Source: Streptosporangium amethystogenes | GTDB lineage: Bacteria; Actinomycetota; Actinomycetes; Streptosporangiales; Streptosporangiaceae | Direction: 5' to 3' | Length of the DNA stretch: 64,000 nucleotides | Assembly: GCF_000721075.1 (NCBI RefSeq) | Contig: NZ_JOEQ01000024.1 | Span: forward strand, 1 to 64,000 | Part shown: piece by piece, positions 33,130 to 49,209 of the stretch | Layout: each line of letters begins with the position of its first letter | How positions within the stretch are numbered: position 1 is the first letter of the stretch | Notes under the pieces: generated by a model | Databases searched by the model: none | Told to the model about the DNA's origin: nothing | The model's input: only the letters and a program-made list of their open reading frames with translations | Made by a program: the position numbers and the translations under genes

Positions 33130-34590
33130 ATGGGCTCTACCGCCTTATCTCCGCCTGGAACCCGTCGGTCCTTCCGTGGTTTGCGCCGGGCCTTGGTCGC
33201 CGGCGTTGTGGGCGTGCTCGGCACGGTCACGGCGCTGACGGTGCCGGCCCCCGCCGGTGCGGCGGCGAGCACGCTCGGCGCGGCGGCTCAGCAGAGCGGC
33301 CGGTACTTCGGCACCGCGATCAGCGCCGGCAAGCTCGGCGACTCGGCGTACACCACGATCGCCAACCGCGAGTTCGACATGGTGACGGCCGAGAACGAGA
33401 TGAAGATCGACGCCACCGAACCGAACCGGGGGCAGTTCAACTTCACCAACGGTGACCGCGTCTACAACTGGGCCGTGCAGAACGGTAAGCGGGTACGCGG
33501 TCACACCCTGGCCTGGCACTCCCAGCAGCCGGGCTGGATGCAGTCCCTGTCCGGCGGCACGCTCCGCCAGGCGATGATCGACCACATCAACGGCGTGATG
33601 GCCCACTACAAGGGCAAGATCTACGCCTGGGATGTGGTCAACGAGGCCTTCGACGACAACAACGGGGGCCGGCGTAACTCCAACCTGCAGCAGACCGGCA
33701 ACGACTGGATCGAGGTCGCCTTCCGCACCGCGCGCGCCGCCGATCCGGCCGCCAAGCTCTGCTACAACGACTACAACATCGACAACTGGACCTGGGCCAA
33801 GACCCAGGGGGTCTACAACATGGTCCGCGACTTCAAGCAGCGCGGTGTGCCGATCGACTGTGTCGGCCTGCAGTCGCACTTCAACAACAACAGCGCCTAC
33901 AACAGCAACTACCGCACCACCATTCAGAGCTTCGCCGCCCTCGGCGTCGACGTGCAGATCACCGAGCTGGACATTCAGGGCGCCCCCGCCTCGACCTACG
34001 CCAACGTGGTCAATGACTGCCTGGCCGTCCCCCGCTGCACCGGCATCACCGTGTGGGGCGTCCGCGACAGCGACTCCTGGCTCTCGACCAACCCGCTGCT
34101 GTTCGACGGCGGCGGTAACAAGAAAGCCGCCTACACCTCGGTCCTCAACGCCCTCAACGCCGCGAACCCGAACCCCACCCCCACCCCGACCGTGACTCCG
34201 ACGTCTGGCGGCGGTAGCGGACCGATCAGGGGCGTCGCCTCCGGCCGATGCGTGGATGTGCCCAACGCCAGCACCACCGACGGCACTCAGCTACAGATCT
34301 GGGACTGTAACGGTCAGACCAACCAGCAGTGGACCCGCACCTCCGCCGGCGAGTTCAGGGTGTACGGCAACAAGTGCCTGGACGCCGCCGGTACCTCCAA
34401 CGGGGTCAAGGTGCAGATCTACTCCTGCTGGGGCGGCGACAACCAGAAGTGGCGCCTGAACAGATCCAGCGGGATGAGAAATCCCGGCTCCAAAAGGGGT
34501 AGGGGTAGGTCTCCGCAGGTCGGAGACCTACCCCTGCTACTTGTAGCGGAATTATGCGACCAGCACGCCTACCAGGGCCAACGCCCATAA
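33130..34590 (+). CDS. Secreted GH10 endo-xylanase with truncated ricin-type lectin
   Basis: A 486-aa exported endo-1,4-beta-xylanase. A signal peptide ends near PAGAAAS. The GH10 barrel spans about residues 45-340, with the acid/base Glu172 in WDVVNEAF and the nucleophile Glu279 in [14 protein letters not shown] is also typical. A Pro/Thr linker and a ricin-type lectin follow, but only two of three trefoil repeats are present. After NQKWRLN the frame runs into unrelated sequence, crosses the left att repeat of the integrated element and stops at 34590 inside it. The catalytic part should be active; binding may be weak. Confidence 0.92.
34502..34551. repeat. Left att repeat (attL) of the 14.7-kb element
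   Basis: Bases 34512-34551 are identical over 40 bp to 49170-49209, and the preceding eight or nine bases match with one difference. The repeat contains the last five codons of smr including the stop (TTCCGCTACAAGTAG on the minus strand) and half of a terminator stem (34502-34515 with 34521-34534). The integrase gene begins its downstream side 43 bp away. Confidence 0.92.
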
Positions 34591-34593
34591 CGA

Positions 34594-35868
34594 TCAGCCA
34601 GAGGGCACAACCAGGGCACTCGACACATCCGCAGTGCCCTCGGCGAAGAAGGCATCCATAGCCTTCCGAGCCCGGTCCGCAGCGTCCGGCATCAGGTGCG
34701 TGTACGTCCGGAGCGTGAACCCCGGATCGGTGTGCCCGAGGTATTCGGCCACCGTCCGGATGTCGACGCCGGCGCCGAGCCAGGCCGACGCCGCGGTGTG
34801 CCGAAGCGCGTGGCACCCGTGTTCCCGGTACGTCTTGCGCCTCTCCCCCGCGCCGGGCGGCGGGACGATTCCCGCGACCTCCAAGCCCAAACGCCACGTG
34901 TAGTTGAAGGTGTTGCGGTGCAGCGCTCCCCCGCGCGGGCCGGTGAAGAGCAGGGCGGCCGTCGTCGGCTCGCCGTCCGGCGTCCGCCAAGGCAACGTCA
35001 CCTCGACCGGCGGGTGTGCGGCGATGTGCGCGCTGAGCCGAAGCGCGACCGACTCGGGCAGCGGGACCGTCCGCGTCTTGCCGCGCTTCGGCGGAGCGAA
35101 CACGAGCTGACCGCCGATGATCCGCACCTGACGGAGCACCCGGACCGCCCGGCCGAGGAAGTCGACGTCACCCAAGGCGATGCCGAACAGCTCGCCCTGC
35201 CGGTGTGCGCACCCGGCGCCGAGGTAGGCCATGGCCCGGTACGGGGCCGGGAGCGCCTCGCCCATGGCCTCGACCTGACCGAGCGTCCAAGGGACGACCT
35301 TCTTCGGCGCGCGCGCCGGCGGCCGCACTGACTTCGTGGCGCACGGGTTCCGGCCGATGATCTGGTCGTCGATCGCGGCATTGAAGATGGCCGACACCGT
35401 GCCAACGACGAGCTTGATCGTGGACGGCTGAAGTCCGGCGCCCTCCATCTCCTTGACCCATGCCTGCACGAGGGATGGCCGCTTGGCGAGCATGCCCATG
35501 GTGTGTGCGCTGATGCTCTTGCCGAACACCCACTTAGACATGCGGCTATCGATCTGCGCCAGGGTGCCCGGGTCGGAGGTCAGGCCGTCGCGCCACTGCT
35601 TCGCGTACGAGGCGAGGGTGACCTGGCCGGCCTTCGGGTCGAGGTAGTCGCCGCGGTCGAGGCTGGCCTTGATCTGTGCGTCCTTGCTCTGCGCATCGGG
35701 CAGCTTCTCGAAGTTGAGCTTCTGCGGCACGCCCGCGTCGTCGCGCCATCGGACCTGCCATCGCTTGCCCTGGCCGTGCTCGGCGGTCGGTACCTTGGCC
35801 GGCCTGCACTTGCATTTGGCTTCGCCCGGCTTGGGCCGGGACTTGTGCCAACGATCCGCGACGGCCAT
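34594..35868 (-). CDS. int: Tyrosine integrase of the integrated element
   Basis: A 424-aa phage-type tyrosine recombinase. An N-terminal arm-type DNA-binding region (RWQVRWRDDAGVPQKLNFEKL) and an SAM-like core-binding domain (about 75-190) precede the catalytic domain. The catalytic residues are the Arg in AGCAHRQGELFG (a variation of the usual ARxxEL), the H-x-x-R pair in HALRHTAASAWLG, and the His and Tyr of LGHTDPGFTLRTYTH. It lies next to attL and faces it, as expected for the enzyme that placed the element at smr. Its start overlaps the repressor stop (TAATG). Confidence 0.93.
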   Translation of the reverse strand: MAVADRWHKSRPKPGEAKCKCRPAKVPTAEHGQGKRWQVRWRDDAGVPQKLNFEKLPDAQSKDAQIKASLDRGDYLDPKAGQVTLASYAKQWRDGLTSDPGTLAQIDSRMSKWVFGKSISAHTMGMLAKRPSLVQAWVKEMEGAGLQPSTIKLVVGTVSAIFNAAIDDQIIGRNPCATKSVRPPARAPKKVVPWTLGQVEAMGEALPAPYRAMAYLGAGCAHRQGELFGIALGDVDFLGRAVRVLRQVRIIGGQLVFAPPKRGKTRTVPLPESVALRLSAHIAAHPPVEVTLPWRTPDGEPTTAALLFTGPRGGALHRNTFNYTWRLGLEVAGIVPPPGAGERRKTYREHGCHALRHTAASAWLGAGVDIRTVAEYLGHTDPGFTLRTYTHLMPDAADRARKAMDAFFAEGTADVSSALVVPSG

Positions 35869-36455
35869 TACTCCCCCTCTGGGTACGCTTCGCGATCAAG
35901 CTTGCGCATTACCTCAAGGGACGATGCCTCTCCTGTCGGGTCGCCCGCGTTGATACGTCTGGCGATCTCCAGGTCTGCGGCCCGCTTCCTTGCCAGCTCT
36001 TCCTCGGTGCGCTCACCTGGCATGTAGTAGCGCCGTCTCCCCTTGGGACGCGCGTGCATCTGGAAGTCCGCCAAGTCGTCTTCATCGAACGACTTCTTTA
36101 GAGGCTCCCGTCCGTCCGCCCAGTTCCACACCTTCCCTGCTGGAAAGCTGCCGGCGGCTGTCACTTCGACCTCGGTCGAGTCGGCCACGGGAGGCAGGAG
36201 CAGGGCGTTCGGGTTCACGCCCAGGACAACCGCCAGAGCCACGAGGTCATCAGCGTCCACTCGGCGCGTGCCGGTTCCCCCGCCTCCTGCTGCATTCTCG
36301 ATCTTGTTGAGCGCATCGACGCTCAGGGGTCGCCCTGTCTCGGTGACCAAACGAGAGAGGTCGCGAAGGCTGAGCCCACGAACCCCCCGAATGCGCTTCA
36401 AGTTGATCGCCACGGCGCGCCCAGAAGGGCCGATCTCGATTCGTGCTGTCGACAT
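35868..36455 (-). CDS. XRE-type HTH repressor of the element
   Basis: A 195-aa protein. Residues 14-85 are a cro/cI-like HTH (LKRIRGVRGLSLRDLSRLVTETGRPLSVDALNKIEN, then VDADDLVALAVVLGVNPNALLLP). The C-terminal 100 residues are charged, with no peptidase motif, so this is not a LexA-type self-cleaving repressor. It is coupled to the integrase and divergent from the excisionase gene. Three AATCNCGAC repeats in the 102-bp gap are candidate operators. The position equals that of the master repressor (Stl-like) in phage satellites and lysogeny modules. Confidence 0.82.
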   Translation of the reverse strand: MSTARIEIGPSGRAVAINLKRIRGVRGLSLRDLSRLVTETGRPLSVDALNKIENAAGGGGTGTRRVDADDLVALAVVLGVNPNALLLPPVADSTEVEVTAAGSFPAGKVWNWADGREPLKKSFDEDDLADFQMHARPKGRRRYYMPGERTEEELARKRAADLEIARRINAGDPTGEASSLEVMRKLDREAYPEGE

Positions 36456-36557
36456 AATCGCGACGCTACCACCACAACTTGCGGACGCCCAACACCTCCC
36501 ATTACTGTCGATCTAATCTCGACGCTTCGTCGAGAGAATCACGACACTGGAGTAAGT
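36456..36557. promoter_or_regulatory. Divergent operator region with three AATCNCGAC repeats
   Basis: The motif AATCNCGAC occurs at 36456-36464, 36515-36523 and 36537-36545 in the same orientation. A hairpin or operator with arms TCTCGACG (36517-36524) and CGTCGAGA (36528-36535) overlaps the second copy. This is the switch region between repressor/integrase and the excision/replication operon. Confidence 0.6.
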
Positions 36558-48887: not shown

Positions 48888-48899
48888 TTTGGAGGGAAC

Positions 48900-49070
48900 G
48901 TGCCGAGCCAGCACAAACACAAGCTCGTGGGAATCCGGGGAGCACCCGAGGAGCTCGTTGAGAAGGTGCGCAAGAAAGCCCCGGACGGGAACCTGTCGAA
49001 AGTGACCATTGAGCTATGGCACCAATACGTCAGCGAGGACGACGCGAAGCCACCAAAAAAGGACTCATGA
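48900..49070 (+). CDS. Small RHH-like DNA-binding protein, 56 aa
   Basis: A GTG with a strong GGAGGGA site opens a frame of 56 codons ending at TGA 49070. The product (MPSQHKHKLVGIRGAPEEL, then LSKVTIELWHQYV) is small and basic with the strand-helix-helix look of a ribbon-helix-helix regulator. It is the last gene before attR. The twin operators upstream support a regulator. An antitoxin is another option, but no toxin is adjacent. Confidence 0.62.
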   Translation: MPSQHKHKLVGIRGAPEELVEKVRKKAPDGNLSKVTIELWHQYVSEDDAKPPKKDS

Positions 49071-49160
49071 TCAGGGCACACAGAGGGCACATCACGCCAG
49101 GATCGCCCACGATCTAACGGGATCTGGCGAGACAAGAAATCCCAGTTCAGAGGGGATTTA

Positions 49161-49209
49161 GGGTAGGTATCCGCAGGTCGGAGACCTACCCCTGCTACTT
49201 GTAGCGGAA
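49161..49209. repeat. Right att repeat (attR) of the element
   Basis: Bases 49170-49209 equal 34512-34551, and 49161-49169 match with one change. On the right the repeat runs into the chromosomal smr gene, whose last five codons are inside it, so insertion restores the smr end. The inverted terminator stem of the site (around 49162-49190) has one mismatch here. Confidence 0.92.

Follow-up and report, generated by a model that had tools for sequence, protein, structure and literature searches.

What is an integrated element that encodes its own integration and replication proteins together with a small terminase subunit (TerS) and a tape measure protein (TMP), and in which no other virion protein can be recognised? 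The question is raised by positions 34512-49209 (14.7 kb) of a 64,000-nt stretch of contig NZ_JOEQ01000024.1 from Streptosporangium amethystogenes, hereafter the window. We found that this element is a member of a recurring family of satellite-like elements that share an anatomy and have repeatedly swapped their TMP genes. As to how it lives, we favour, with evenly balanced confidence, a satellite-like integrative element built on a backbone of the type found in actinomycete conjugative elements (AICEs), whose TerS would redirect packaging and whose own TMP would replace that of a helper phage.

The stretch is a real, bounded element integrated at the 3' end of a gene encoding an Smr-domain protein. 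The longest direct repeat across 33500-50500 is a 101-nt pair with 80% identity (34463-34563 and 49121-49221; the runner-up has 32 nt and 75%), and its core is identical at 40 of 40 positions (34512-34551 and 49170-49209). An exact 40-bp repeat within 17 kb is far beyond chance, by judgement rather than from a computed expectation. The final 15 nt of the Smr-domain gene fall within the right copy. In genome G208, which carries the site without insert, 226 bp separate the Smr gene from the match to window positions 28788-29430, so that 29.4-49.2 kb of the window is absent there; the element makes up the rightmost 14.7 kb of this absent segment. Since the xylanase cluster next to the left attachment site (attL), at about 29.7-34.5 kb and outside the element, is itself absent from this place in the compared relatives, only the broader absence in G208 was used. 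Within the genus, all 16 genomes (own included) match the right flank in its Smr part, and 15 match its S8 peptidase part. The element has a G+C content of 0.659, against 0.696 for the remainder of the window. The Smr target is used elsewhere, because integrases with 63% (G112) and 64% (G155) identity also adjoin an Smr gene. The related element L028 has its own direct repeat with copies 14,584 bp apart. The repeat core, the Smr target and the site without insert thus uphold the integrated element with identical 40-bp ends that an earlier, sequence-only reading of this DNA had proposed.

Two features of the flanks stand apart from this. A xylanase/ricin-lectin gene cluster (window 29700-34462) abuts attL and matches a cluster at another place in G123; its GH10 reading frame extends to 34590, i.e., 128 nt past the end of the homology with G123. 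Sequence like the right end, just inside the right attachment site (from 49071 and 49026), also adjoins Smr in G180 and G213 (L099, L106), perhaps representing related elements or remnants at the same Smr site.

The element and its target gene comprise the following features (HTH, helix-turn-helix; E-values follow the families):

34512..34551, no strand: left 40-bp copy of the attachment site, inside the 101-nt imperfect repeat 34463-34563
34594..35868, minus: tyrosine integrase, 424 aa (PF00589, 2.4e-17; phrog_1, 5.7e-51)
35868..36455, minus: HTH repressor-like protein, 195 aa (phrog_11503, 1.4e-16)
36558..36767, plus: excisionase-like HTH_17 protein, 69 aa, divergent from the repressor (PF12728, 5.6e-10; phrog_66, 1.3e-07)
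36767..37108, plus: small protein o4, 113 aa, no family match; matched in 7 of 17 compared loci
37108..37893, plus: Prim-Pol, 261 aa (PF09250, 3.7e-31); nearest relative 72% identical, in L039
37890..39236, plus: RepA-like AAA_25 ATPase, 448 aa (PF13481, 4.7e-16); 73% identical to that of L034
39236..39409, plus: small open reading frame (ORF), 57 aa
39413..39775, plus: HTH_17-like protein o7, 120 aa (PF12728, 0.0002, below the cut-off)
39744..40394, plus: coiled-coil protein o8, 216 aa, no Pfam match (weakly phrog_26392, 0.0043, function unknown)
40654..40992, plus: HNH endonuclease, 112 aa (phrog_333, 4.1e-20)
41113..41505, plus: TerS, 130 aa (phrog_1496, 1e-14)
41495..41806, plus: o12, 103 aa, no family, between TerS and TMP
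41821..45336, plus: TMP, 1171 aa (phrog_4197, 2.9e-120), with NlpC/P60 (PF00877, 2.8e-10) at residues 998-1083
45431..45637, minus: small protein a, near the TMP also in L027, L038 and L039, and in L028 without a TMP
45634..45882, minus: small protein b, also in L038 and L039
46048..46305, plus: short GntR DNA-binding protein, 85 aa (PF00392, 7.2e-14)
46544..47344, minus: DUF2637 membrane protein (PF10935, 4.1e-17), near TraB in relatives
47302..47697, minus: small protein e (weakly DUF6907, 0.021, below the cut-off)
47720..47938, minus: small protein f
47935..48735, minus: protein g, 266 aa, no family match; 55% identity over 122 aa in L020
48900..49070, plus: small ORF h, 56 aa, no family
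49170..49209, no strand: right 40-bp copy of the attachment site, overlapping the 3' end of the Smr gene
49195..49578, minus: target gene, Smr-domain protein (PF01713, 1.4e-14), frame open to the stop

These family matches confirm the order read earlier: integrase and repressor one way, then a divergent excisionase, Prim-Pol and ATPase, followed by HNH, TerS and TMP. The large terminase subunit (TerL), portal, capsid, protease and tail-tube genes reported as missing are so in our searches too, with no virion-family match found in the element besides TerS and TMP (Pfam, PHROG and our own virion models). The only proteins above 200 aa without a named function are o8 and g, neither of which has a PHROG virion match. 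The right third (46.0-49.1 kb), with GntR, DUF2637 and small genes, is of the kind seen in AICEs; its GntR and DUF2637 genes (46.0-47.3 kb) went unremarked in the earlier reading. Homologues of TerS adjoin TerL in prophages L021 and L022; the first PDB match of its predicted fold is the TerS of HK97, but with E = 1, and a search of solved structures with TerS gave nothing (best 0.088). At the level of the whole element, near matches were found in no phage, and in plasmids as two 61-bp pieces. We also tried o8 as a capsid scaffold: its model (pLDDT 83.6, pTM 0.47) consists of long helices and has no match at E<=0.001 in a viral fold library, and a protein search gave five matches, itself included.

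The same kind of backbone recurs as an integrated unit in related genomes, where the earlier reading had suggested looking for it. Searches covered 345 genomes of the order, where the TMP profile matched 42 at E<=1e-60 and a TraB-like ATPase profile 90 at E<=1e-30 (own genome included in the former, not in the latter), and 250 genomes of the family, where TerS as query matched 18 (own included). The TraB profile listed about 125 places, from which 40 further contexts were fetched; 20 more from the TMP listing gave 17 prophage-type loci and 3 lone TMPs. From the contexts fetched in this one order, we hand-picked 17 elements for their clear backbone genes (L141 is cut by a contig end). Each contains at most two virion genes according to our own models, which were built from four reference phages, grown iteratively within our own loci and partly seeded by proteins of the window; they may miss distant virion genes, and several relatives hold unassigned ORFs of at least 200 aa. 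A lone TMP, with or without TerS, is present in 12 elements: five have TMP and TerS (window, L027, L029, L039, L059) and seven a TMP without a detected TerS (L037, L038, L041, L043, L141, L148, L153). The others encode TerS and TerL (L034, L042), TerS and a capsid protein (L033) or TerS alone (L020, L028). PHROG confirmed TerS as phrog_1496 in the window, L027, L029, L034, L042 and L059, and as phrog_83 in L039, as well as TerL in L034 and L042 and the major head protein in L033. A single genome, G230, has two elements with a common right half (TraB 98.7% identical) and left halves that share nothing at E<=1e-5: one has a capsid protein and TerS, the other a TMP.

Two loci extend this picture on its margins. 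L197 (G274, 12548-14020), with an integrase 51% identical to that of the window, is a further element, whose lone TerL is of another type (phrog_2); nothing else within 20 kb has a virion match. Beside L029 (G015 C11), a second AICE-like gene set with its own integrase (L165) directly adjoins the lone-TMP element, possibly a tandem insertion.

The TMPs have been swapped repeatedly, because element TMPs are scattered among prophage TMPs in a quick tree of 38 rows (12 element, 22 prophage and 4 reference TMPs), with 8 label changes for the element rows. A single origin of the lone TMPs was rejected when 7 element rows were held together in a 16-row set (approximately unbiased test, p-AU 0.00014, an optimistic value because the set was picked after the larger tree had been seen). 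The window TMP shares 67% identity with its counterpart in L043; the nearest TMP from a prophage, on a viral contig, is 55% identical. The TMP frames span 909-1505 aa without stops, and the ratio of nonsynonymous to synonymous substitution rates (Nei-Gojobori dN/dS) is 0.31 (L043) and 0.40 (L027) for element TMPs, 0.28 for the integrase and 0.47-0.48 for Prim-Pol. Within the clade of the window the TMPs are shorter (5 versus 4, p 0.032; 5 versus 8, p 0.030), in a comparison whose rows are not independent, whose clade was picked after the tree and which leaves out the truncated L173 as well as L169, equal in length to L151.

The backbone resembles that of AICEs. Those of the pSAM2 type combine an integrase and Xis, a Prim-Pol, a short GntR regulator and DUF2637, and the element has all of these. 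Relatives also carry a TraB-like ATPase, but the window element differs in that no TraB was found in it and in carrying TerS, HNH and TMP. The AICE translocase was not found in the host genome at all (no match at E<=1e-30 to a TraB profile of five relatives). The ATPases of L020, L027, L033, L034, L037, L038, L039, L041, L043 and L059 match NF041214 with E-values of 1e-108 or lower (2e-108 for L020); because their 362-405 bits fall below the cut-off of 800, we call them TraB-like and not members of NF041214. L029 has an FtsK-like ATPase (PF01580, 1.5e-06), L148 a 609-aa protein in the same place without NCBIfam match, and the window and L153 no such ATPase. At least 7 of the 12 lone-TMP elements therefore carry a TraB-like ATPase, or 8 with the FtsK-like one of L029. 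The ATPase of L020 had no match in 50,697 phage records, nor did the TraB profile in solved structures. TraB loci are common to Streptosporangium pseudovulgare, S. minutum, S. violaceochromogenes, Nonomuraea and others. A search of the available literature for AICEs with a terminase in Streptomyces found no paper, which is no proof of their being unpublished.

Among known satellites, the closest parallel for the TMP is given by the phage-inducible chromosomal island-like elements (PLEs) of Vibrio cholerae. According to PMC12987554, a PLE-encoded TMP enters PLE virions, whose tails are about 10 nm shorter, and deletion of tmp cuts PLE11 transduction by about 99.9%; satellite-encoded TMPs were reported there in 2026 as a first, for PLEs, along with other putative satellites with predicted tmp genes. 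PLEs are likewise integrated satellites with a TMP unlike that of the helper, and their TMPs differ between variant groups, but they parasitise ICP1, encode a tail chaperone (in PLE11 together with a hub protein) and have unrelated hosts (PMC12987554). This likeness is one of gene content and description, not of protein sequence comparison; of the PLE pair tmp and tac, the TMP is present in our element and no chaperone was found, o12 being without family. Phage-inducible chromosomal islands (PICIs), including those of Staphylococcus aureus (SaPIs), share the order integrase, repressor, divergent excisionase, primase-replicase or ATPase and TerS, a size of about 15 kb and, as far as PMC10690885 describes them, the lack of capsid genes, none of which was found here either. 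They differ in that the element has an AICE-like right third and a TMP, and no induction or interference gene was identified in it; the nearest backbone relatives found are AICE-like elements. Capsid-forming PICIs (cf-PICIs) and the Streptomyces satellites MulchRoom and MiniFlayer also have packaging genes with HNH, and the latter two are actinobacterial, with capsid genes and, according to PMC10690885, no primase; these satellites encode a set of capsid and TerL genes that was not found in the element. From the cf-PICI set of capsid, portal, protease and both terminase subunits, only TerS was found. In the general sense of a satellite, the element is integrated, has its own integration and replication genes and has no complete virion set.

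The gene content suggests that the element diverts a helper, and analogy with PLEs and PICIs suggests helper dependence, packaging and incorporation into tails. The integrase would insert the element at the 3' end of smr and, with the excisionase, remove it; the anatomy of this step is observed and its activity presumed. The helper phage would relieve the repressor, and Prim-Pol and the AAA ATPase would, judging from their families, replicate the element. TerS, with HNH, may then steer the helper's TerL to element DNA, and the element TMP may replace that of the helper to give a chimeric tail matched to it, as the PLE precedent suggests. The TMP gene, whose swapping is seen in the tree, would be exchanged upon a change of helper. 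With no TraB found in the window copy, transfer would depend on phage or on another element.

Several observations weigh against this reading. The element labels are somewhat clustered on the TMP tree (8 changes or fewer in 25 of 500 shuffles, mean 10.4), and a shorter TMP was rejected as a general rule (12 versus 22, p 0.14). TerS is not constant: it was not detected in 7 of the 12 lone-TMP elements, belongs to phrog_83 instead of phrog_1496 in L039, and a 12-row TerS profile matched 3 of the 16 genomes of the genus (1e-6). With seven TraB-like ATPases and the FtsK-like one of L029, the TMP accompanies TraB at least as often as TerS. We found no tail chaperone beside the TMP and identified no capsid-remodelling gene in the element; o12 was considered as a chaperone, but it has no family match, and a homologue (72% identity) is retained in L020, where no TMP was found. 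The only resident prophage found has a TMP of another type. Finally, none of the 10 loci mapped, out of 22 TMP or TraB loci from viral contigs, is a lone-TMP element, and the six mapped TMP loci are ordinary head-and-tail modules. The earlier proposal of a satellite holds for an integrated, recurring element in which TerS and TMP are the sole virion genes found, and less well for the backbone, which is AICE-like, most compared elements having a TraB-like ATPase. Because TerS was undetected in so many elements while most have this ATPase, we retain a decoy or a role in conjugation as alternatives.

The decoy explanation, which we consider improbable but the first to be weighed, sees an AICE-derived element that moves by conjugation or, here, no longer moves, and whose lone virion genes (TMP, capsid protein, TerL, TerS) would be expressed upon infection and then poison the assembly of related phages. 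It would account for the fact that each element has one or two virion genes, the kind of which varies, for TMPs captured from different phages and accompanying the TraB-like ATPase more often than TerS, and for elements with TerL or a capsid protein that would build no tail, no tail gene having been found in them. Yet TerS is kept in 10 of the 17 elements, in some beside HNH, which points to packaging; no PADLOC model matched any of 10 element proteins, though none would be expected for a decoy.

That the element is a prophage that has lost its other late genes, the main alternative of the sequence-only reading, is not favoured and seems quite unlikely. In its favour, TerS, HNH and TMP are phage genes, prophages with a TraB-like gene occur in the order, and one prophage (L208) has an integrase with 46% identity. 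Prim-Pol relatives at E<=1e-60 occupy 18 places in the 345 genomes (own included), and the 14 viewed of the 17 other contexts (48-72% identity) are elements of these kinds or AICE-like units, none with a head-and-tail module. Integrase relatives at E<=1e-90 occupy 37 places (own included), the nearest being 73% (G233, L028) and 69% (G272, L059) identical, both in elements where no head genes were found. In the 17 contexts viewed among the other 36 (two of them, L195 and L203, short), one, L208, is a prophage with TerL and portal; its integrase is 46% identical by BLAST (51% by HMMER), and nothing in it matches the repressor or Prim-Pol of the element. Apart from L208 and L197, the remaining 15 show no virion gene beyond TerS or TMP. 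Complete prophages with the same integrase-repressor block are mostly wanting in the contexts viewed. An earlier comparison with 42 prophage pieces, whose only backbone match was an integrase at 25%, is weak, as the pieces held mostly late genes and several came from one prophage. Nor do TerS and TMP trace to one phage group: four prophages with near TMPs were searched upstream of their head genes, and the window TerS has no match there at E<=10, which argues against a common source of the two in a phage of that kind. A wider TerS model matched in two of the four (E 1.2e-07 and 4.4e-04). The same outcome is seen in 11 other elements, though these were picked as having lone TMPs, the TMP frame is open and constrained, and an informal look noticed no form with a TMP and a partial tail module. 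The missing head genes might have lain elsewhere in the genome: it has no match to PF03354, phrog_9 or PF05065, and its one TerL match (phrog_2, 3e-24) lies on contig C57, in a separate prophage (L162, L168) with its own integrase, TerL (phrog_38/phrog_2), portal (phrog_776), head protein (phrog_777) and a 927-aa TMP.

A third alternative is that TraB-type conjugation has recruited the TMP as a channel through cell wall and membrane. This fits the finding that 8 of the 12 lone-TMP elements also have an ATPase like TraB or FtsK, and the NlpC/P60 domain of the window TMP, but is very unlikely given that the NlpC/P60 catalytic motif occurs in 5 of the 12 lone TMPs, that no TraB was found beside the window TMP, and that a capsid protein or TerL takes the place of the TMP in relatives.

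Returning to the satellite-like element, a broader and more tentative proposal is that Streptosporangiaceae and their kin host a class of elements with two routes of transfer, in which an AICE backbone bears a satellite cassette that accommodates a single exchangeable virion gene. This gene would be a TMP, a capsid protein or TerL, replaced to suit whichever phage is present locally, and one family could travel both by TraB conjugation and in reprogrammed phage particles. With 12 lone-TMP members seen here and TMPs captured repeatedly, such a family from actinobacteria would mean that tail reprogramming is more widespread among satellites, and the natural TMP swaps allow testing which helper each TMP serves. 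The TraB-bearing relatives raise the question of whether a single element is able to move by conjugation as well as in phage particles.

Some prophage-type head-tail modules have a TraB-like ATPase at one end, several with DUF2637 (L040/L081/L082, L046/L083, L060/L085/L086, L061/L087/L088 and L057/L092). TerL lies in the extensions of four of the five loci (L040, L046, L060, L061, L057), which are temperate phages with a conjugation-type module. At the far left of the window, a match to a group II intron (Rfam RF00029, positions 13-87) lies near a tRNA-Pro gene (622-698).

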